A DNA stretch of 64,000 nt from assembly GCA_963678705.1 (NCBI GenBank), contig OY783204.1, positions 21,400,759 through 21,464,758 of the forward strand. The letters are read 5' to 3'. The stretch comes from Panorpa germanica. Lineage: Eukaryota > Arthropoda > Insecta > Mecoptera > Panorpidae. Below are positions 5,038 through 63,850 of the stretch, one piece after another; position 1 is the first letter of the stretch; each line of letters starts with the position of its first letter. The translations under genes were made by a program, and so were the position numbers. A model generated the notes under the pieces. The model did not search any database. It saw only the letters and a list, made by a program, of their open reading frames with translations, and was not told the origin of the DNA.

Positions 5038-5273
5038 TACAAACATTTCGGAGTCACTTTGCCATCATATTAAAGATGCGTATGAGTTTTATGTCATGAA
5101 AAAGTTCAGTTTCTCACATTCGTTCATATGAAATGTCTATTTTATCCGCTACTATAATGGCAAAACCAGTCCACCTGCCGAAATACAAATGAAGAAAAAG
5201 TTGATGCAAACTATAGTTGAAGTGCAATAGTGATAGAAACGTCACAAAATAGGACACTTCACCAAATTGTTTA
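5038..5273 (-). mobile_element. MITE family M1 (CCCAGTAAACA type), copy a
   Basis: One of six related ~240-bp copies (5038, 36386, 40976, 43932, 62097, 63597). Ends are variants of CAGTAAACAATTTGG and its inverse. Internal landmarks are GTCACTTTGCCATCATATT, TTCATATGAAATGTCTATTTT and the terminal ACTTCACCAAATTGTTTA. Both extreme ends of this copy have decayed. Confidence 0.8.
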
Positions 5274-22086: not shown

Positions 22087-22912
22087 AACGTCGGTGAAGT
22101 ACGCAGTCGATTCGGACTAGTGGGGTGAATCAAAATTAATTCGGTGTTAAATCGAACTTTAAATTACATGGCTAATCGGAACATTTAAGCAAATATTTAA
22201 GTGATAATAGTCTGTAGAAGTATTAAGCAACTTAAATATTATTCTATAATATATAAATTCAACAATTAGTGTCTTATATTGCTGTTTTAATATAGGAAAA
22301 TAAAACGCGAACGAACATCTTAAACCTCATTATTTAAAGAAATTATTGTTTTATAAATAGGTTAACTAATATGTCTCTTAGGTAATTACAAAATTTCAGC
22401 CGTAACTTATTCTTCTTTCCTTCAAAAATTGCAACTTAGTGAAGCCATGTACAATGACAGTTCGGTTCCATATCTGTGCGGCAACTCATAAGAAGCTAAA
22501 AATCTAAAAAACCACATTCTTTAATGAAATTATTTTTTTATAAATAGGTTATAAAAATTGCAATTTTTGAAGAAATTAAGAATGAGTTACGGCTGTAACT
22601 ACCTAAGAGACATATTAGTTAACCTATTTATAAAAAAATAATTTCATTAAATAATGAGGTTTTATATGTTCGTTTGAGTTTTATTTTCCTGTATTAAAAT
22701 AGCAATATAAGACACTAATTGGTGAATTTATATATTATATAATAATATTTAAGTTATTTAATACTTCTACAGTCTATTATCACTTAAATATTTGCTTAAA
22801 TGTTCCGATTAGCCATGTTATTTAAAGTTCGATTTAACACCGAATTAAATTTGATTTACACCACTAGTCCGAATCGACTGCTATCGAATCGGATGCGTAC
22901 TTCACCGACGTT
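22087..22912. mobile_element. Foldback element with ~350-bp arms
   Basis: The left arm 22087-22433 and right arm 22560-22912 are inverted copies, starting AACGTCGGTGAAGTACGC and ending GCGTACTTCACCGACGTT. The ~126-bp centre carries a further partial copy of an arm segment (around TTTTTTATAAATAGGTT). No coding frame. The arms have few differences, so a transcript could form a hairpin of about 350 bp. A decayed relative is at 12412-12684. Confidence 0.85.
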
Positions 22913-31136: not shown

Positions 31137-32252
31137 ATCGTGTTTTTTTATTTATTATTTCCAACATACGAATGTTGATCAATAAGTTACAGTGTTTGAG
31201 TTTCACGTTTTCCATCCAAAAGTAAAAACCTCGAATAAACTGATTGATATTTTTCTTTTTCTATTTTATCTAAAAACACCAAACACGTTTAATACAAATA
31301 GATGTTAAATTAAAACTAATCTATAAACAAATCTGAAATCGTGTTTGGCGTCGTTTGAAAGATGGTGATTCTCAAACTAAAATTTTCATATTTCTTATTC
31401 CGTATATTCCGTAACATACACTGCTGGGTTTTCCAACTTATATTTTTAATAAGTAATAATTAGGTAAAACATTTTTGCTCGGTTAATTAAGTACATTACA
31501 AAAAGAAAACTCCAAAGCTTACAAAAAGAAAACTATGAGTACATTTATTTACAATTTTTATATTAGCTTTTTTTTAGTAATATATTTTCCATTTTATAAC
31601 ATTCTTTGAAGCTTTGTGTCAACCAAGAAACTTTTAAAAAAGTTTTTTTTATTCAAAGACAGGTACAAAAAAAATTTAATAAGTCACAAGTGCAGCAGCG
31701 GCTGTGATGATTTATTTCCAGGGACTTGTTTAAAAGTTTAAAAATATATCGTTATTCACAAGTCAGGAAGTTTTAGCAACAGAGCGATGGAGAAATAGAG
31801 AAATGTGCCGCCTAATTCAATCAACGAACCGAAACGTTTGAACGACTTTAGAATTGTTTATTTAATTTAACTTTGATAAATTTTGTAATTTGTTTATGTC
31901 ATTTAAATATATAATTATTTCACGTTCGTAAATCCTTTGATGCCCTAAATCCTGAACTACTGGGTTGCATTTAATTATTCGAAGTTTTGAATCTATCCTT
32001 TTCTCAGTTTATATGTGTAGTTTAAATTATGAGAGATCGGAGGTAACACAGGGTTAAAAAAGAGTTAAGTCTAAACTAATAGTAAGATGGTTTAGTTTGT
32101 CAGTGAAAATAGGATAGAAGAAACATGAAGTTAAGAATGGTGAAGTAGTGAAGAAGACGATAGAGAAAATGACACAAGAGAAAAAGGAAAAGATGTCATT
32201 TGTTTTAAATTTAATTAGGATCTGGAATAATTTAAATTCAATTTATTGATAT
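31137..32252. other. Non-coding; nothing recognised
   Basis: AT-rich, with a purine-rich part at 32090-32190. No sustained coding frame. Confidence 0.45.
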
Positions 32253-33451
32253 GTAATAGGGATTGAGAAACATGACTTTGACGCCAACTACCGAGAAAAA
32301 TGTAAAGCAAAGTGGTGGCAAGTGGTATAGAAAACAATAAGGAATTTGTTAAATTAATAATTTTTTTAATCTAATCGAAATAATTTTAAGTAATGTCTTC
32401 TTCAAAAGTATCGTGCTGTATCCGTGGCTGTTTCAATATGCCATATAAAAACAAAAACCAAAATACAAGTGTGAAATTTTATCGTTTCCCTGCGAGTACT
32501 CTGAATTCAGAATGGATAACCTTTAAACGTCAACAATGGATAAATGCAGTGAAAAACTATGTGTAAGTAAATTATTTTAATAAAAAAATTTAATTAATCA
32601 CAATCAAATTTGAAAAGCTAAGTATTATAAAATAGAATATTAAACTATATAATAATTATTTTATGAAATAAATAAAATAGTAATAAGTAAAAGTAAAATT
32701 TAAAAAATTTGTGTTTCAGAAAATATCTAAAGGATTGGGAACTAACTAAAAATACACGCATTTGTAGTGATCATTTTGTGAATAATCAAAAGTCAGAACA
32801 TCCTCGGCATCCTTCATACACACCAACAATTTTTCCTGGTAAAGTAAATACCAAAAAATCCACTCATTCATTTGAACGTTTCGAACGATTACGGCAACGG
32901 AATGTACGAAGTGAAATGAATGTAATTAATAATAATAATAATAATAATAATGAAATTGAAATTCAAGAGTGATAATTATGTAGATATTGAAACACAGAGC
33001 GTTGAAGATCATTATGCTTCTGATGCTACTCCACAAAAAACAACTCGTAGTATAACATGTCAATCTGATGAAATTGTTGATGAAAGTGTTTTAGATGAAC
33101 ATAAGTATTTTTTTTGTAACATAAATTCCCGTGATGGTGTAACTACTGCAGAAGTGCAAGTAAACATTCCAATTAAAAGGACAGCCGAAAAAATGTGTGA
33201 TGTTAATTTGCCGCTTTTACGAAAGAATGTTGAAGATGTTGGGTGTGATCCAATTACTCCAGATCCTATTAAATCTGATTATCAAGGTTCAAGATTATCA
33301 AGAACCCGAATTTAATTATTTTTTGCATTATTTATTTCAATTAATACTATTTCTACGCTATTTACATCACAATCCTTTACATTTATGACACCAGAGCGCT
33401 CCACTTTCGGCAGTAGTGCTGCCTCTACAGTTCTTTCTCAATCCCTATTAC
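32253..33451. mobile_element. Compact TIR element carrying a THAP gene (P-element-like)
   Basis: Perfect 18-bp inverted repeats, GTAATAGGGATTGAGAAA at 32253-32270 and its exact complement at 33434-33451, enclose 1.2 kb containing a THAP-domain gene and nothing else. THAP domains are the DNA-binding head of P-element transposases, so this looks like a P-like element that lost the catalytic region. The flanking octamers (ATTGATAT and TGATTAAA) do not form a clear 8-bp duplication, so superfamily assignment rests on the THAP domain and termini. A host THAP gene caught between chance repeats is less likely given the exact 18-bp match. Confidence 0.65.
32393..33315 (+). pseudogene. THAP-domain protein gene, two exons, frame broken
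   Basis: THAP domains are ~80-90-residue C2CH zinc fingers that bind specific DNA. Exon 1 (32393-32562) starts MSSSKVSCCIRGC, with the first Cys pair (C8, C13), then VKFYRFP and the conserved Trp. The intron 32563-32719 is GTAAGT..TTTCAG and joins in phase 2. Exon 2 continues KYLKDWELTKNTRICSDHF, giving the second C-x2-H pair, and PTIFP, the end-of-domain proline box. After an AAT repeat coding for about eight Asn, the frame stops at 32970-32972. A neighbouring frame continues, acidic and uninterrupted, to 33315 (containing TQSVEDHYASDATPQ), so a 1- or 2-base indel near the stop probably broke one longer protein. No coiled coil or catalytic domain follows before the right TIR. Confidence 0.75.
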
Positions 33452-35393
33452 TGATTAAATGAGGAAGAATGTAAAGCACAGCGGAATGAATTAAAAGTAA
33501 ATATACATACATACGATGGTCTTTATATTATAGGAAAATGACAAGACAGTGCTTTATTTAATTTATTTAATTTATTTTTGCTTGTAACTTTTTTAAGAAA
33601 AAAGTATTAATTAGTGTTAGTATTATACAAAAAGATATTAATAAAATTTGAATATAATATCTGTGACTTTTGTTATATTAATTGTGTACTTATATAATCA
33701 TACATTTATTAGGCAGCGGTATATTTCATATATGTGAAGCACGACATTACAAATACAGTTAACATAGTAGGAGTTTGTCAGTCATAGAACTCAGTTTCTG
33801 AAATAGGCCAAGGTTAAATTAAATTAAAAAAATATATAATATATACACATTTTTGTGGCTGGTGCTGAACGGGACAATGTGAATATTCCAAATTTGGAAC
33901 CGATATGGAAGTTAGAAAGAATCGCATTGAAAGTTCTAAGAAAGAAAATTAGTTTAATTTTAAGTTAACATAACCTAGAAAATCTGTTTCAATTTTGACT
34001 AAAACATACCATGAAATATTTTGAAGAAAAGGAACAACAAAATAAACAAGAAAATTGATTGTACCATTATATTTAACCCTCTAAAACCTAAATTTGAATC
34101 CTGATAACATTGAAAACATATGAAGCCGTCCGTATGCACGTATGAATTGCAATTGGTAAATACTACGAAACTTTCTCATCAAAACATACTTTATGAAAAA
34201 GTTATTAAAGACAAGGATCAGCAAATATGACCGAGCAGTTCAAAATTACCGTAAATCAAAAAAGGAAAAAAAGTGTATAAACCCAGGTTTGCTTCCTACC
34301 CAAAATGCACGTATTATTCAATCGTTTCAATAGTTTTGTGTAACATACCAATATTAAAACACGTATACATCACTATCAATAAAATTTTCCAGTTATTTGA
34401 CAATATAAAAACCATTCAATGGTAAATTTAATGTTTATCAATGATCATAAATATATTTTAATTACTATTTTTATATGAAAAAGTAAAGCCTTTCCCATGG
34501 GCGGTCCGTGTCGTGTCATGACAAGTTAGTACAGGTTTTGAAACCAGTAAATCAAACAAGACTATACTTGCACTCATGCTCATATAACAGAGATGGCAAA
34601 CCTATTCCTGTGTAAGTCACAGAAAAATATAAACAGTATTTATAGATTTCTGACGTGTCCTTCCCTTTTAGTCGTACGTCAATTTTTAAGTCTGTTTTAA
34701 TCTCACTCAATAGTTAGTACACAGGCAAAACTTACATACATGTTAATTGTGTCATATTTACATAAGCACGCGTGTTATAGGTTAGCCATCCTTGTCATAT
34801 AGGAACTATCCTACTCGTATACGAGTAACCGTGTAGTAAAATAAAATATTTTACGTTTATGACTTGCTGTTGCTATTACCGTCGCGACGCTATGCAAATA
34901 CGACTGCATATGTGCACCAGGCGTTTGCATGCAGATCTGTGCCATTCTTGTTTTATTTTTTATTTAATTAATATTAATTCCCTTGTTTTATTTCCATGTC
35001 GCCTTTATGTGACAGTAATATATTTCTGGTAACTATGAAGACTACATTTTAGTTTGTTACTGGGGATATTATCTAACCAACTATCATGTAATGTGAAATT
35101 TAGGTAAAACCTAGTCATATTTAATATAAATGCGTCTTATTTTATAGTTATTGGTACGATATTTATTGTCCTTGTCTCCTGGATTCATTTGTAAAAGCTG
35201 GACTAGTCGTGTGACTAAGCAGGAAAGCATAGTGAAGAACAAAATGATTTCTCAACTATATTAAATATGCATGCGTTGCTGAAATTGAAGTCGATTGATC
35301 ACTTATTTAACTAAAACCGTACGATATTTTTTTTAGAGTCTGAGTCGATTTTAAAATCAAAGTCATGTACGGCTGGAGTTGAAATCGAATATA
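33452..35393. other. Non-coding; nothing recognised
   Basis: About 1.9 kb of AT-rich DNA. Just outside the THAP element at 33464-33484 is a 21-bp near-match to a segment inside its left end (32296-32316, core AATGTAAAGCA), of unknown meaning. Confidence 0.45.
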
Positions 35394-35924
35394 CGAGGCG
35401 TGTTTTTTAAGTAAGTACCGTTTTGGAATTAAAAAAAGACGTGCAAAGATATCGCAATAATTTTATTTTTACATGAAAGCCTGTACCTTAATCTACTTTT
35501 CATTTCCGTGAATATTGAGGCACTTGTCATAACGTCGCACCAGTTTTTGAATAGCCTCCTCATAAAATTCTGCCGCCTGACTTGTTAACCACTGTATCAC
35601 AACTGTTTTGACTTCGTTATCGTCTTGAAGACGCTGCGGCCATCTTTATGATCTCACACATATCTCACAATGAATATCGATCGGTTTTACGCCTTTAGCA
35701 CTAAGAAATCGTATAACAGCCCGTACTTCACAATCGGCGGGACTCACGATTGTCGGAGGCATCTTAAACACTCAGTAAACAACGTATACAATGAAGAATC
35801 AGACTGTAATAGCGTCAGTGCGTAGACAAGAGATGTAGGTAACCAGCGCGCATGCGCGGAACGCCGACCGTAGCGCTGCAAAGGAGGAAACGCAAAACGG
35901 TACTTACTTAAAATACATGCCTCG
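35394..35924 (-). mobile_element. Mariner deletion derivative, family MD, copy 1
   Basis: TIRs begin CGAGGCGTGTTTTTTAAGTA on the left and, inverted, CGAGGCATGTATTTTAAGTA on the right, with TA on each side (35392-35393, 35925-35926). The interior is the reverse complement of 58063-58649: N-terminal HTH codons of a mariner transposase joined to its last ~47 codons, with the catalytic core missing. This copy also lacks about 56 bp of the HTH-coding part. It shares the core-deletion junction with copy 2. Confidence 0.9.
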
Positions 35925-35926
35925 TA

Positions 35927-36385
35927 TGTTTTTACTGTTTTAACATGGACAATTGTTGATAAAACGGAATACTTGAATTTGAAATTAGAATAGTAACAAA
36001 ATGGCTAACAATAATGACAAAAGAATTGCAATATTTAGCTATTCAAAAGTGTTGAATTATGTTGTAATCCTTAAAAAGGGACTTCTTAATATATTATAAT
36101 TGTCCTTGTTCCTTGTGGTGTTCTTCAGTAGTTTTGTAAGTATAAAAGGGTAGATTTATTTTTTAAAACGTAGTAAATAGTTTACAGAACGATATATATT
36201 AGATACTATGATTTAAGTATAAAGTAACTTTTGTTAGTTAATTGTTAGGATATTCAATTTAATTTTTTCCAGTTTTCCAGTTCAAATTTCTTTTTTTTTA
36301 ATATTTTGAATCGCTTTCAAAGATCACAGTCTCTTTTTTATCATAGAAGTTAAATTTACTCACAAAACTAAATTATGCACTACGT
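35927..36385. other. Non-coding; nothing recognised
   Basis: AT-rich, no supported feature. Confidence 0.4.
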
Positions 36386-38966: not shown

Positions 38967-39734
38967 TTTTTTTAATATAGATTTTTGGGCTTCGTAGGCA
39001 TGTAGCCTTTTATCGCCCCTAATACTATTCTGTCTTTTCTTATATATTATACCCAGATAACAAGAATGATCTGTTCATGGCAACTGCAGTTATAAATCTC
39101 GGTTTCTCAATCAAAAAAGCGGTGTTAACAGGAAGCGTCTGCGAAGTCTGTAGTATCGCCCTTTGGAGTCCATTTCTTGCCATTGATGTATTTTTACATT
39201 GCCACAGAATGTGGTCAGGGTCTGCCTCTTCTTCACCACATTCGCATTTAGAGTTTGGAATAATTTTGTTTCTTGCTAGATGTTTCGGAGCTCCAGTATG
39301 ATTCATTCTTAGCCTTGAGGTCATTGTAATTAATCTTCTTGGCCATTTTAGTTTGGCAAACCATGGCTTACGTCTCAGTATTGGTTGTATTGTATAAAAT
39401 TCTCTACCTTTATCAGAATTATCCCACTTGTCTTGCCAATTTTTCATTTCATTTTTTTCTAATTCTGCTTTCATGTCTGACTTTATAAAAAATGAAATAT
39501 ATTTATCACAGGAAGTAGCTACCTTGGCCATTTGATCAGCTTTTTCATTTCCCTTAATTCCCTTATGTGACGGTATCCAAATTAGTTTAATATTTCGGCT
39601 CTTATCTATTTCCCTATTTATTTTTTCTTTGACATAATAAATTTTGTTGTCTAATTTTGTATTGATTCCCTTACTGCTTAAGGACTGTATGACTGATAAC
39701 GAGTCGGATAATATTAAAGTGCTGTCTCTGTCAT
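38967..39734 (-). mobile_element. 5'-truncated LINE family L2 with 14-bp TSD
   Basis: Perfect direct repeats AAAATTGTACTTTT at 38953-38966 and 39735-39748 bracket the insert. Inside the left copy is a T run (poly-A on the minus strand), then a 3' hairpin-forming block (GGGCGATAAAAGGCTAC..GAAGCCC on the minus strand), then the ORF2 end. This is the classic product of target-primed reverse transcription. The frame is still open, so the insertion is fairly young. Confidence 0.92.
39040..39734 (-). pseudogene. LINE ORF2 C-terminus: RNase H and zinc knuckle
   Basis: Open to the truncation point (about 230 residues). It holds the second half of a ribonuclease H domain: ILSDSLSVIQSL with the catalytic Asp, and IWIPSHKGIKGNEKADQMAK with the His and last Asp. 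This is followed by RLRMNHTGAPKHLARNKI and the knuckle CECGEEEADPDHILWQC. RNase H removes the RNA strand during reverse transcription. The first RNase H strands and all of the reverse transcriptase are missing, so the product cannot function. The natural start codon is lost; upstream codons come from the target duplication. Confidence 0.9.
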
Positions 39735-39748
39735 AAAATTGTACTTTT

Positions 39749-40834
39749 AAAAACAAGAATATGCAAAATCAGACAAATGAAAATTGTTCTTTTGAATGTG
39801 TGACGTCACAACAAGGGGAGTTAATAAACCATAAAAATTGATTGAAGTAATTTATGGATGACCTTGACCATTCACACGTAACTATCTTTAGCGGTACAAT
39901 TTAATAGCTTTTAGAGGTAAGGAAACTATCTTATTCGCTGTTAAAGTGTAAATACAAAGTTGTTATAGTGCTTGTAAAATAGTTCAATAAATATAAACAT
40001 CAAAAAGGCTATAAAGCCTAAGTTGTCTACATTATTGTAGTAATATAGGTTAAAAAATAAATAAAAGCTATACCGGAAGCTCGTTCTTAAGTTCAGGACC
40101 TGAGAATGACCGAATATGCAGCTCTACCAACATAACCGTTATTTTTAGTGCTATTATCCAGAATGCTGTAGCTTTATATGATGTCATTTCGGAACAATTT
40201 GACTCGAGAGTGTTCTATACATCGTATTCAGTGATACCACACTAAAAGTGTTCAGTGTTCCCTTGTCAAACTTCATGACACAATTCACAACGTACTATTT
40301 TCCTTCGATGGGGAGGTCAGTGCGGGGAACGGGGGTCAACATCAACTTGTAAACTAGAATTTAATTTTTGTATTTTATCAATAATTTATTTTTGTAGTAT
40401 TTTGTTATTGTGTTTTTATAGGCTCTATAAAAGAGTATGACTTTACTTTAAATTTTATGTTGTCATTTCAAGTAGTACCAGTATTTGACTATGAAAGTGA
40501 AGTAAACATTACTGCAAATTCTAATAAAATATATATTTGTATATAAAATTGAAAATATAAGCTATGTCATCTGTTGATATGTTTTATTGTAGTGTTCAAT
40601 AATGCTAGGTTAGCTAAGCAAGTTGATAGTGTGAGACAGTTTTGAAAACATGTTTTGTTTTTCGAAAACAGACTGTTTAGACTAAAGAGACTGGTTTTCT
40701 TTTTAGTGTTTTTCTGTGTGTCTCATAAAAATTATAAACGTGATAAACAACAACTGACAAACTCAAATGTTCACAAAAAACAAAACTGCGTGTTCAAACA
40801 AAGCAGACTAAAAAAGATCAACAAACGTGTTTTC
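39749..40834. other. Non-coding; nothing recognised
   Basis: AT-rich. The left part of the M3 MITE at 40835 may begin further left (to about 40620) but no left end could be fixed. Confidence 0.45.
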
Positions 40835-40957: not shown

Positions 40958-40975
40958 CTGCAGGGCCGGTTTACA

Positions 40976-41215
40976 CCCAGTAAATAACTTGGTGAAGTGC
41001 CCTATTTTATGACGTTTCCATCATTATTTCACTTCAATTATAGTTCGCATCAATTCATTGCATTCCGATAGGTGGCGTGATTTCGCCATTTGTAGCCGAT
41101 AAAATAGACATTTGATATGAACGGACTGTGAGAAACTGAATTGTAAATAAACTCTTTCATGACAAAAAATCATACGCATCTTCAATATGAAAGTGACTCC
41201 TATATGTTTACTGGG
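40976..41215 (+). mobile_element. MITE family M1, copy c
   Basis: Complete 240-bp copy from CCCAGTAAATAACTTGGTG to ATATGTTTACTGGG. Interior blocks as in the other copies. It lies 18 bp after the end of the M3 copy. Confidence 0.85.
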
Positions 41216-41336
41216 ATGGCTACTTATAGACAAAGCAGCCTCAATGCCATGTTTTCCTCAACGATCTTCACCCCGATATCTACTATTTATCTTATTTTTC
41301 ACATTGTTCACATAATTTACTTTAATCTCGTATCAT

Positions 41337-43041: not shown

Positions 43042-43931
43042 TGTTGAAAAACTCGAAGTAGTTGCACACTAGTTGTCATTTATTCCGAAATTTTCTTAAA
43101 CATAGAAAATATACTCACAAAGAATAATGTAAAGAATAAGATATAAAATATTCCAATCTTAATGCACAAAGTAACTTAACAACTATCTCAATTAAGATGA
43201 TAAAGCACCAATAAGACGAGTGTCTTATTCCACGTCATCTCCGTCGTACAGGACTAAGTTTCTAAACTCGTTCAAACGTACACAGTTGTGTGATATTCAA
43301 TGCTGCACTCGGCTTCTATAAGATCTCACGTTATCTCATCTGATCCCGGATTTTCTACAAGACAATGAAAAGACTTAGACAGCTGTTGGAAGCTGCAGAG
43401 AGTCGTTAGATGATGAAGAGAGGCGGAGGGGGAAGGTTGAAATGTTATCATTAAGACATAAAGATGACAAAACGTAAAGGTACTGAATACTTATGACGTC
43501 ATAAATTTTAGTACATTATAAAATAAAAAAGTTATTTATTGGTGATAGCGAAATTACGATTATTATTACAGTTTCATACGAATCAAACATACACACACAC
43601 ACATACACTCGTCATACGTTGTTTTTATATTGTTACACATTAAAAGTTGTGTAATTTGTAACTTTATTTAACTACTTTTTGGAAAAGTTGTTTATGTTAG
43701 GAAACGAATATCACGTAGCTGTTTAATTCACGGAAGGATGTGATATGTTTTGTGCTTTTGGTATTAATGTTTTGTCTTTAATGGGAATTTTACGAGTCGT
43801 TGTTACTGGCTCTTGTTTGTGATCTATGTGGAATTAAAATATATACATAATCTGTTAAATTTTTTATGTTAAATTTAAGCATTAGCTTGTTTAGTTGTCA
43901 TCTCATAATAATATGTTTGTTTCAGTTACGA
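43042..43931. other. Non-coding; nothing recognised
   Basis: AT-rich, with a short ACAC tract at 43590-43603. No gene supported. Confidence 0.4.
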
Positions 43932-44168
43932 CCCAGTAAACAATTTGGTGAAGTGTTCTGTTTTGTAACGTTTCTTTATTGCACTTCAATTATAGTTTGC
44001 TTTATCTTTATCTTCATTTGTATTCCGATAAGTGGAGTGGTTTCGCCATTTCTAGCTGATTAAATAGCTGTTCCATATGAACAACTATGAGAAACTGGAC
44101 TGTAAATGACAAAAAATCAATGGCATCTTCAATATGTTTGGCAAAGTTACTGCAAAATGTTAACTGGG
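43932..44168 (+). mobile_element. MITE family M1, copy d
   Basis: Runs from CCCAGTAAACAATTTGGTG to AAAATGTTAACTGGG, full length. It lies directly beside the left end of the mariner relic. Confidence 0.85.
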
Positions 44169-44189: not shown

Positions 44190-45110
44190 TGACAGTGAGT
44201 TTGAAGAAGCGCTTTATTTCTCAATAAAAGATTATTTTAAGTAAAGGCGCTTTATTTATCAACATAGTCTCCTTTAAGCCCGATACATTTAGTCCAGTTT
44301 CTCCAATTTTTTTATTCCTTCCACATATGAATCAGATATAAATGGAAATGACCTTCTTGAGGAATTATTATTAATTATATATTAATTAAGATGTTTTAAA
44401 TTATTTGTTCCGAACAAATTGTACAAATTAAGAAATTATTTAGATAGGAACTGTGTTTTGGTAGGATGATACTTGTTTACATGCTAATCAACTATTAATT
44501 ACCTTAAAACATGAGTTTGTGAATTATAATTGTCTTGTAACGTCACATATCGACGCAAAAATTCCGGTTTGTTACGTTTAAACATGGCCAAACACTGCTC
44601 AGAATCATCAACACGTTCCCGTTTTTGGTCAACAGTCAGCAAACGCGGCACCCACTTTGAACAGAGCTTTCTCATAGTCAAATGCTCATGCAATATAAAG
44701 CCAACACGTTCTTTTGATATCTTTACGATGTCAGCTAACTCACGCAACTTCACTTTTCGATCATTCCAAACGATTTTGTGGATTTTTTTTATGTTTTCTG
44801 GTGTTACCGCCTCATTTGGACGTCCACTGCGCTCTGCATCATCGGTGTCTCTACGACCACGTTTAAAGTCAGCAAACCAACGTTTTATTGTTGTTTCTGA
44901 TGGAGCGGAGTCCCCATAACACTTTTCAAGCCATTGCTTCGTTTGAACGGTATTTTTTCCCATCAAGAAGCAGTGTAAAATTAAAACACAAAATTGTTTT
45001 TGATCCATTGTTTTGAAAATAACAAAAGTAACGTCACTCTTAGCACAATAACTCACAAACTACTGAATAGAATATCATGAAATTTTAATTTAATCTATTT
45101 GCTATATAGA
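44190..45110 (-). mobile_element. Mariner element relic with internal deletion
   Basis: The N-terminal transposase codons (45008 to 44541) and the very end of the transposase (minus-strand WTKCIGLKGDYVDK then stop at 44252-44254, preceded by EGIKKLEK one base out of frame) are both present. About 200 bp of unrelated sequence replaces the catalytic core. Exact TIRs were not resolved. Confidence 0.8.
44541..45008 (-). pseudogene. Mariner transposase, N-terminal part
   Basis: Mariner transposases cut and paste their element via a DD34D active site. The start at 45008 (MDQKQFCVLILHCFLMGKNT) is the usual mariner N-terminus; 16 in-frame codons further upstream lie in the 5' UTR. About 156 residues cover both helix-turn-helix motifs, including TIKRWFADFKRGRRDTDDAE and RSGRP, then the linker with WVPRLLT and FLRRYVT. 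Similarity stops exactly before the block that would carry the first catalytic Asp (MDETW). Likely a mellifera- or irritans-type mariner; the subfamily is not certain. Confidence 0.88.
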
Positions 45111-57938: not shown

Positions 57939-58062
57939 TGTATTGCTCAGTTACATTTATTTTCGACTGTAACTCTTCTTACGTAATTTATTGGTTTCTC
58001 GACCCTCCAATTCTTTTACTCTATTGTAATAATCTGATACAATCGCAAAGCAAGGAAATATA

Positions 58063-58649
58063 CGAGGCATGTTTTTTAAGTAAGTACCGTTTTGCGTTTC
58101 CGCCTTTGCAGCGCTACGGTCGGCGTTCCGCGCATGCGCGCTGGTTACCTACATCTCTTGTCTACGCACTGACGCCATTACAGTCTGATTCTTCATTGTA
58201 TACGTTGTTTACTGAGTGTTTAAGATGCCTCCGACAATCGTAAGTCCCGCCGATTGTGAAGTACGGGCTGTTATACGATTTCTTAGTGCTAAAGGCGTAA
58301 AACCGATCGATATTCATCGTGAGATCTGTGAAGTTTACGGACAAGACATTATGAGTGATGGAATGGTAAGGAAATGGGTGAGAGCATTTAAAGAAGGCCG
58401 CACCGTCTTCAAGACGATAACGAAGTCAAAACAGTTGTGATACAGTGGTTAACAAGTCAGGCGGCAGAATTTTATGAGGAGGGTATTCAAAAACTGGTGC
58501 CACGTTATGACAAGTGCCTCAATATTCACGGAAATTATGTAGAAAAGTAGATTAAGGTACAGGCTTTCATGTAAAAATAAAATTATTGCGATATCTTTGC
58601 ACGTCTTTTTTTAATTCCAAAACGGTACTTACTTAAAAAACACGCCTCG
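58063..58649 (+). mobile_element. Mariner deletion derivative, family MD, copy 2
   Basis: TIRs CGAGGCATGTTTTTTAAGTA and, inverted at the right, CGAGGCGTGTTTTTTAAGTA, with TA at 58061-58062 and 58650-58651. 587 bp. It carries the N-terminal and C-terminal ends of a mariner transposase with the catalytic middle deleted. Inverted relative of 35394-35924. Confidence 0.93.
58225..58550 (+). pseudogene. Internally deleted mariner transposase (family MD)
   Basis: The start at 58225 gives MPPTIVSPADCEVRAVIRFL, then a helix-turn-helix through DGMVRKWVRAFKEGR. At about 58404 the sequence jumps to the last 47 codons of the transposase, in another frame (LQDDNEVKTVVIQWLTSQAA to HGNYVEK, stop at 58548-58550). 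The DD34D catalytic region is gone, so at most a truncated DNA-binding peptide of about 72 residues could be made (stop at 58438-58440). Confidence 0.88.
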
Positions 58650-58849
58650 TACATTAGCGTTAAGTATGTAATCCTTTACACCGGTACTCAGTTCTTGATG
58701 TATTACTTATAGATATTGAGATATCAGTATTTGAAACTCGTAGCGTGAAAATAGATCAACTTTTTAAAATAAAAGCATAGAAGCATTATTTTAAAAAGTT
58801 TAGTATCTGCTTATTTAACAATGAAAAATATTAATTAGGTGTCAGGATA

Positions 58850-61148: not shown

Positions 61149-62096
61149 TATTAGAAGATACAGGTAATATATGTGTAAAGAAATTATATTTCTTTAGTTG
61201 GCAAAAAGCTCGTTTGTCGGAAAAACAGTGAACGATTAGTTAAAATATATATTCATGAACGCCACAGATATCGCTGTAGGAATAACGGCCAATACAGATT
61301 ATTATTTGGAGTCGTCAGAACTTACGTAGGAACTTAGGTTATAATAAAATTAGATAAAAAGGAATTAACAAATTATGGTAAATAATGAACTTTAAATGTC
61401 GTTTCTTTAAATTTCAGAAGCAACACATGACTTTGTTTAAAATTTACAATTCCTAATAAAACTACACATTAACTTTAACTAAGCTCTCTAACTTATATTT
61501 AATAATTTCTAATACTTGTAAGATTAGTAATGGACAATATGAACCTTATGACAGATATATATAAGACGTCAACAAATTTTTCAGCTTGAAGCTTAATCTA
61601 ACCTTAGCACTAATTTTCTTATTTACAAGATTAATTTATTAACAATAATTCGATATTCTATTATATTAATCTATCAAACACAGCAGTATTTTTTGCATGT
61701 TATATATTTTCCATTTTATTAATAATTTAATAAAATTTACGACTATGTTAATAATATTATTTAGTTTATTTTGATACAAAGAACGTTTTTAATAAAGATA
61801 GATAAGAAAATCTGTGCTTTCTTAATAAAATGAGCTTTTACGTATACATGTAGTCTTAAGTACATTATTCTCTCAGTTATTTTGCTTTAAGCTTACACAA
61901 CTTTGTTTATTCCTATAAGTAGAAGCAAATAGAATTAATGGAGTAAATTTATGAAATTACTACAGTAGACTGTTCATTACGCTAGGTACCTAGGTAATGT
62001 GTATATTCTCATTATATTAATATTATTATAATCATTAATAAAGTTATTATTTTTTATAATTTAGATATTCTTCATTATAATTCTTTAATAGAACAC
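61149..62096. other. Non-coding; nothing recognised
   Basis: Very AT-rich; no supported feature. Confidence 0.45.
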
Positions 62097-62349
62097 CACA
62101 TTAAGCAATTTGGTAAAGTGTACTCTTTTGTGAAGTTTCCAACACTATTCCACTTTAATTAAAGTTGGCATCAACTTTATATTCATTTGTATTCCGACAG
62201 TTGGAGTGTTTTTGCCATTTGTAGCCGATCAAATAGACATTTCATATGAACGACTGTGAGAAACTGAAGTGTAAATGAATTCTTTTATGATAAGAAAATC
62301 ATACACATATTCAATATGATGGCAAAGTGACTCCAAAATGTTTACTGGG
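62097..62349 (+). mobile_element. MITE family M1, copy e
   Basis: Interior and right end (GTGACTCCAAAATGTTTACT) are well preserved; the left end reads ACATTAAGCAATTTGGTAAA, decayed from CCCAGTAAACAATTTGG. It ends 41 bp left of the L1 copy D left TSD. Confidence 0.8.
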
Positions 62350-62406
62350 AGCTTATCTTAATTTATGTCGGTTTTAAACAGTAAATGCTGAAAAACACTA
62401 TCGCAC

Positions 62407-63582: not shown

Positions 63583-63596
63583 TCTAAGAAAATCTA

Positions 63597-63836
63597 GTAA
63601 TCACTTTGCCATCATATTGAAAATGCGATTTTTTGTCATAAAAGAGTTCATTTACGTTTCAGTTTCTCACAGTCGTTCATATGAAATGTCTATTTTATCG
63701 GCTGCAAATGGTAAAACCACTCCATCTGTCGGAATACAAATGAAGATAAAGTTGATGCTAATTGATGATGATTATTGAAGTGCAATAGTGATAGAAACGT
63801 CACAAAACAGGACACTTCACCAAATTGTTTACTGGG
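63597..63836 (-). mobile_element. MITE family M1, copy f
   Basis: Left end decayed (CTAGTAATCACTTTGCCATC), right end intact (CACCAAATTGTTTACTGGG). It begins 14 bp after the stop codon of the LINE-like frame. Confidence 0.82.
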
Positions 63837-63850
63837 TACTATGTAATGCG

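Follow-up and report, generated by a model that had tools for sequence, protein, structure and literature searches.

The closest described relatives of the element analysed here are the ISL2EU transposons. In the account given in PMC4482050, these occur in animal hosts, duplicate AT on insertion and encode a transposase with THAP, HTH and DDE domains together with a YqaJ protein from a second ORF; their terminal inverted repeats (TIRs) usually begin with GG, the target context is A-AT-T and the average length is about 4.84 kb. P elements, a further group of THAP-bearing transposons, have TIRs and non-autonomous forms (PMC1562414, PMC7776569) and encode a THAP-bearing 66-kDa repressor and a 207-aa KP repressor (PMC7776569).

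The window is a stretch of 64,000 nucleotides from Panorpa germanica (G000:C1:21400759-21464758 of the 464.2-Mb assembly), and it contains a unit that is almost certainly a non-autonomous, internal-deletion derivative of a cut-and-paste transposon of the ISL2EU group (PHIS: PIF/Harbinger-ISL2EU-Spy). The assignment to this group rests on the AT duplication, the transposase domains and the YqaJ frame rather than on a transposase tree. The borders of the window copy were set by comparison with other genomic copies, and its features are as follows.

32256..32257, no strand: left AT of the target-site duplication (AT...AT in fetched copies; empty sites)
32258..33446, plus strand: the element, assigned to the short deletion class of an ISL2EU-type transposon, 1189 bp (copies align from about AT to AT)
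32258..32270, plus strand: left terminal inverted repeat AGGGATTGAGAAA, 13 bp (copy comparison; 27-base left-end pattern)
32393..32562, plus strand: THAP gene exon 1, first 170 coding bases (frame reading; copy comparison)
32414..32834, plus strand: THAP domain coding span, across the intron (Pfam PF05485, residues 8-95, E=8.6e-11)
32563..32719, plus strand: predicted intron GTAAGT...TTTCAG (splice-site letters; copy comparison)
32720..32972, plus strand: exon 2 to a stop private to the window copy, 140-aa product (frame reading; Pfam; copy comparison)
32950..33315, plus strand: tail frame, out of frame in the window copy and in frame in open copies, 254 aa in total (no Pfam match)
33283..33308, plus strand: internal deletion junction with templated filler that repeats GATTATCAAG (exact in 59 genome places)
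33434..33446, minus strand: right terminal inverted repeat, 13 bp (copy comparison; 28-base right-end pattern)
33447..33448, no strand: right AT of the target-site duplication (AT...AT in fetched copies; empty sites)

The earlier note on this DNA had described exact 18-bp terminal inverted repeats flanked, by expectation, by 8-bp duplications. An exact 18-bp inverted repeat is present at 32253-32270 and 33434-33451 and is beyond chance, because 60 simulated first-order Markov windows contained only 0.033 exact inverted repeats of at least 18 bp within 3 kb per window, and none with at least five G/C. However, only 13 bp of it are TIR; the adjoining AT is the target duplication, and the outer GTA/TAC is part of the insertion site of the window copy, outside the element. 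The 18-bp repeat is thus a 13-bp TIR plus AT plus three chance bases. The 8-bp duplication did not hold up: the flanks of the window copy, ATTGATAT at 32245-32252 and TGATTAAA at 33452-33459, differ, and copy flanks and two empty sites show the duplication to be AT.

Among 39 fetched copies, the TIRs are directly bordered by AT on both sides in 38, six of which have one or two mismatches in the final 16 right-end bases. In the remaining copy (L034, on contig C35) the left end is without its first bases or has them altered, and the right end lies beyond the fetched stretch. Two copies, L011 and L019, share a background repeat, into which they are inserted at two sites and with opposing orientations, so that each provides the empty site of the other. 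Both of these reciprocal empty sites have a single AT where the filled sites have two, which identifies AT as the target duplication. An alignment of L045 with the window copy as a further empty-site comparison is strongly diverged and gave 258.5 for one AT and 259.0 for two. Outside the duplication, the base to the left is A in 13 copies, T in 24 and C in one, and that to the right is T in nine, A in 26, C in two and G in one (n=38 for both). A TWA duplication of the PIF/Harbinger type was ruled out, the left TAA and right TTA being different words. A 21-bp word at 32295 that recurs just outside the right end (33464) was also set aside as chance, having E 2.7 in a search of the window.

The scan for inverted repeats also found several further pairs of at least 18 bp in the window, and TIR-like units are therefore common there. 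Inverted copies at 35388-35931 and 58056-58655 (about 0.55-0.6 kb, 88.5% identical) have exact inverted ends of 21-25 bp (TTTTAAGTAAGTACCGTTTTG) and represent a different MITE-like family, and a long inverted repeat at 22087-22912, with arms of about 335 bp that are 91% alike, is a foldback-like or long-TIR unit. A dispersed repeat of about 240 bp is present in at least five copies (62093-62350, 63589-63837, 40971-41216, 43926-44168 and 5041-5273), and a 1.56-kb inverted pair has its outer ends at 62182 and 63744, within two of these. The window also holds, on the minus strand, a mariner-like fragment at 44499-45056 (HTH_48, E=1.1e-8, no DDE match in that frame) and a non-LTR retrotransposon-like tail at 39040-39756 (RNase H, E=5.2e-7, with a zf-RVT match under cut-off).

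The element as a query of the genome gave 131 candidates, of which the best 40 were scored, and the resulting counts are lower bounds. These 40 comprised 26 short matches of nearly full length, the window copy among them (96-100% identical), one short copy split into two pieces, 12 copies that are longer by about 280 bases (95-98% identical) and one match on contig C35 that is a full-length element. The left-end pattern (27 bases, two ambiguous letters) occurs at 104 places in the genome and the right-end pattern (28 bases) at 78, while both reversed controls gave 0. For 68 of 100 left ends (out of the 104), an exact right end lies no more than 8 kb away; for the other 32 none does. The lengths of these 68 pairs fall into classes: 47 measure 1.12-1.21 kb, 15 measure 1.40-1.51 kb (one being a different form, L092), three measure 3.67-4.48 kb and one is 751 bp, with two tandem abutments making up the rest.

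These counts bear out the proposals that the same ends and the THAP exon pair recur across the genome and that the unit is a MITE-like mobile element: the copies are many, lack a transposase and have their ends in common with one another and with coding relatives. They also bear on whether a host THAP gene might simply lie between inverted repeats by chance. The intron is well formed, as expected of such a gene, and the window copy alone could not tell the two apart; however, the same ends and gene are found together across the genome, with empty sites, and the copy number rules this candidate out, so that we regard it as virtually impossible.

Mean pairwise divergence is 1.5% within the short class, 0.6% within the long class and 3.3% between them, from which both classes look young. 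L034 was left out of the divergence comparison, and out of the frame, variant, junction, indel and 11-bp comparisons below, because it is the full-length element on C35, which is represented there by L068. On C5, two pairs of copies in inverted arrangement (24111931-24125164 and 24215584-24228817) lie 103,653 bp apart with identical spacing; these blocks are a segmental duplication or an assembly doubling, and some of the counted copies therefore arose in one of these two ways. A head-to-tail array of element copies is present at G000:C3:23974971-23976184; at two places in it, 1161 bp apart, one AT serves both a right end and the left end of the following copy, through either serial insertion into AT or unequal exchange.

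Four full-length copies of 3.67-4.46 kb share both their ends and the two THAP exons with the short form. A search of the genome with DDE_Tnp_4, in which the best 150 of 381 candidates were scored, gave a match on contig C35 directly behind an element copy. At this locus (L068), THAP exon 2, the HTH and the start of the DDE domain lie in one frame, which shifts inside the DDE domain, and one of the frames on the opposite strand has a YqaJ match of 18.6 bits, under the cut-off of 22. The interior of L068 as a query gave three further full-length copies (L089, L090 and L091), the deletion form L092 and more distant relatives with 68-76% identity.

L089 is the only one of the four full-length copies that is open throughout. 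It is 3671 bp long, with exact TIRs and AT...AT, and its spliced frame of 526 aa has matches to THAP (2.4e-9), HTH_Tnp_4 (1.5e-7) and DDE_Tnp_4 (7.9e-41), the last extending over profile positions 1-158, the whole profile. Its opposite strand has a stop-to-stop frame of 430 aa with a YqaJ match of 1.5e-12 (48.5 bits versus the cut-off of 22). The transposase frames of the other three are broken, stopping at 49 aa in L090 and at 175 aa in L091, the right flank of which is AC, not AT. One of the four full-length copies is without the first ten left-end bases. The left end of L090 adjoins LTR-retrotransposon polymerase-like frames (reverse-complement coordinates 732-1969), and judging from these frames the copy seems to have inserted into an LTR-retrotransposon-like element.

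The genome also contains a sister ISL2EU-like family (L076-L082, L087 and L088), with 73-76% identity over the DDE part and about 70% across 200 bp of the gene on the opposite strand. Thirteen of 14 sister loci had no match to the element TIR within three mismatches, although these loci, at 3.2-3.5 kb, may not reach the ends; the fourteenth had one match with three mismatches.

The full-length copies allow the element to be compared with the known groups. It resembles ISL2EU, as characterised in PMC4482050, in its AT target duplication, in the combination of THAP, HTH and DDE in one transposase (L089) and in the YqaJ second gene. It differs from that description in that its TIR starts with AGGG rather than the usual GG, in its outer context, which is mostly T-AT-A rather than A-AT-T and is a preference for neighbouring bases, not the duplication itself, and in its full-length size of 3.67-4.46 kb compared with an average of about 4.84 kb (PMC4482050). 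The window copy differs further in having lost the HTH, DDE and YqaJ parts.

Derivation from a P element, the assignment made in the earlier note, would account for the N-terminal THAP domain, the TIRs and the non-autonomous form, since P elements have TIRs and non-autonomous forms of their own (PMC1562414, PMC7776569). The prediction of a longer relative with a P-type catalytic domain was right in that longer, catalytic relatives exist, but their domain is DDE_Tnp_4, with HTH_Tnp_4 and a YqaJ frame, and is not of the P type. The Pfam matches of the L089 product are to DDE_Tnp_4, DDE_Tnp_1, HTH_Tnp_4 and THAP only, with no P-type transposase family at E up to 0.1, and Pfam found in this product no P-type RNase H transposase with a GTP-binding insertion. 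Together with the AT duplications, the DDE_Tnp_4, HTH_Tnp_4 and YqaJ matches of the full-length relative rule out a P-element origin, which we consider barely conceivable.

Other systems offer partial parallels. The P-MITEs of Anopheles gambiae also consist of short, non-autonomous copies that bear the ends of a THAP-transposase element, but as reported in PMC1562414 their centres are unrelated to P and they have 8-bp duplications, whereas the centre of our element consists of the 5' portion of the transposase gene. In Caenorhabditis, the CERP2/CELE2 MITEs and HIM-17 likewise bring together MITEs and a transposase-related THAP protein; however, HIM-17 is described as a host THAP factor acting on MITE-derived promoters (PMC9757741), while the THAP gene of our element is internal to it. 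Viral contigs had no match to the exact 18-bp end or to the THAP protein, and a bacterial and archaeal genome collection had none to the protein. A literature search with the TIR letters found no paper, and no THAP-only ISL2EU derivative was among the matches listed by a search of titles and abstract starts, with Repbase lying outside its scope.

The structure of the THAP gene in the window copy agrees with the earlier reading of a correctly phased two-exon gene that has no catalytic domain and whose tail is broken after an AAT repeat. Exon 2 is in phase with exon 1 across the predicted intron, and the PF05485 match is complete across it (profile 1-87 of 87). Among the 38 other copies, the donor GTAAGT is present in 37 (it is ATAAGT in L031) and the acceptor TTTCAG in all 38. 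The frame of the window copy ends at a TGA (32970-32972) that directly follows the AAT repeat, and the tail continues in another frame to 33315; a one-base difference private to this copy has broken the frame. Pfam detected no catalytic domain in either reading piece, HTH and DDE also being absent, and the sole other match was to DUF1972 (E=0.015, under its cut-off).

When the short form is aligned with L089, the sequence after GATTATCAAGGTT is connected, through a filler repeating GATTATCAAG, with CAAGAACCCGAATTT. Interrupted gap repair typically leaves templated filler of this sort. Twenty-three of the 27 short copies examined have the junction exactly, and a genome-wide count gave 59 exact matches (control 0). 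The long class has a junction of its own, exact in 11 of 12 copies, and its frame runs from the tail into HTH_Tnp_4 (E=1.4e-8) and ends before the catalytic domain. These class-specific junctions imply that each class most simply came from one deletion event and then multiplied. A third deletion form, L092 (G000:C5:11597000-11603000), is 1396 bp long with AT...AT and keeps the first ~575 bases and the 3' part.

Most simply, a single internal deletion removed the HTH, the catalytic parts and the YqaJ gene, leaving a short templated filler, and the resulting 1.2-kb form then multiplied by insertions that duplicate AT. The transposase would presumably be supplied in trans by full-length copies and would recognise the TIRs and subterminal DNA, and the THAP frame is most likely a passenger left by the deletion and now decaying. 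That the element is an amplified young member of the ISL2EU group, still carrying the THAP part of its parent transposase and ordinary in kind, is well supported.

The THAP-only frame has nevertheless stayed open in some copies. Besides the window copy, 26 short copies were fetched, and nine of them (L009-L015, L018 and L027) have an open frame of 252-254 aa with the same final residues and intact GTAAGT/TTTCAG splice sites, whereas the frame stops at 208 aa in L017 and at 6 aa in L029, and that of L031 is shifted and has the changed splice donor. These open frames are consistent with two readings in which the protein has a role. In the first, the open short copies would make their 254-aa THAP-only protein, which would bind the element ends and act as a KP-like repressor of the full-length element, much as P elements encode 66-kDa and 207-aa KP repressors (PMC7776569). 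A subterminal word, AAATGTAAAG, is common to both ends, which is borderline against shuffles (p 0.05-0.065), and on its letters it is a possible binding site. In the second, the THAP gene would be domesticated and under selection, with the element ends as relics.

The variants of the coding part do not favour either reading. Singletons in the short class number 86 nonsynonymous (N) to 22 synonymous (S), which is 20% S compared with 23% expected without selection, and variants common to several copies number 8 N to 2 S. When the majority sequence of the short class is compared with each of the four full-length copies, N:S is 6:0, 4:0, 7:1 and 5:1. The density of singletons per 100 bases is 10.5 for the THAP coding sequence and 16.3 for the tail, and 9.6, 11.5 and 3.2 for the non-coding 5' end, 3' end and intron, respectively; on these figures the coding part does not stand out as quiet. 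Nor is there a deficit of frameshift indels in it, as comparison of 26 copies with L009 gave 23 in 765 bp of coding and 5 in 423 bp of non-coding sequence; six of the 23 coding indels can be one common 11-bp deletion.

This deletion in exon 1, which removes the palindrome CTGAATTCAG plus one base and breaks the frame (for example in L024 and L043), is present in 16 of 39 copies (38 fetched and the window copy), namely six short copies and 10 of the 12 long ones, and in none of five full-length or other forms. Its occurrence in both classes may reflect recurrent loss or gene conversion. Because copies with this frame-breaking deletion have multiplied, the element can spread without need for the THAP protein. 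As far as sequence variation can tell, there is no sign of selection keeping the THAP frame, and the substitutions look neutral. The repressor role put forward in the earlier note thus finds no support, and we consider it unlikely; with so many copies and decaying frames, a domesticated gene is highly improbable. Most likely, the THAP gene is a passenger.

The analysis places a previously unnamed repeat in a known group by its ends, duplication, empty sites, coding parent and deletion junction, and it corrects a plausible misreading, as a THAP domain alone does not make a P element. By analogy, and rather doubtfully, the short class could still be the ISL2EU counterpart of the P-element KP form, having multiplied while producing a spliced THAP-only protein of 254 aa that sits on the parent's ends and damps transposition. 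The two systems belong to different transposase superfamilies, with an 8-bp duplication in P and AT here, and KP has repressor activity (PMC7776569), whereas the THAP-only product is only a candidate for that role. Since full-length and open THAP-only copies are present in one genome, this family would be a workable test case for THAP-only repression outside P elements; if such repression were true, it would have evolved independently in a second THAP-transposase superfamily.
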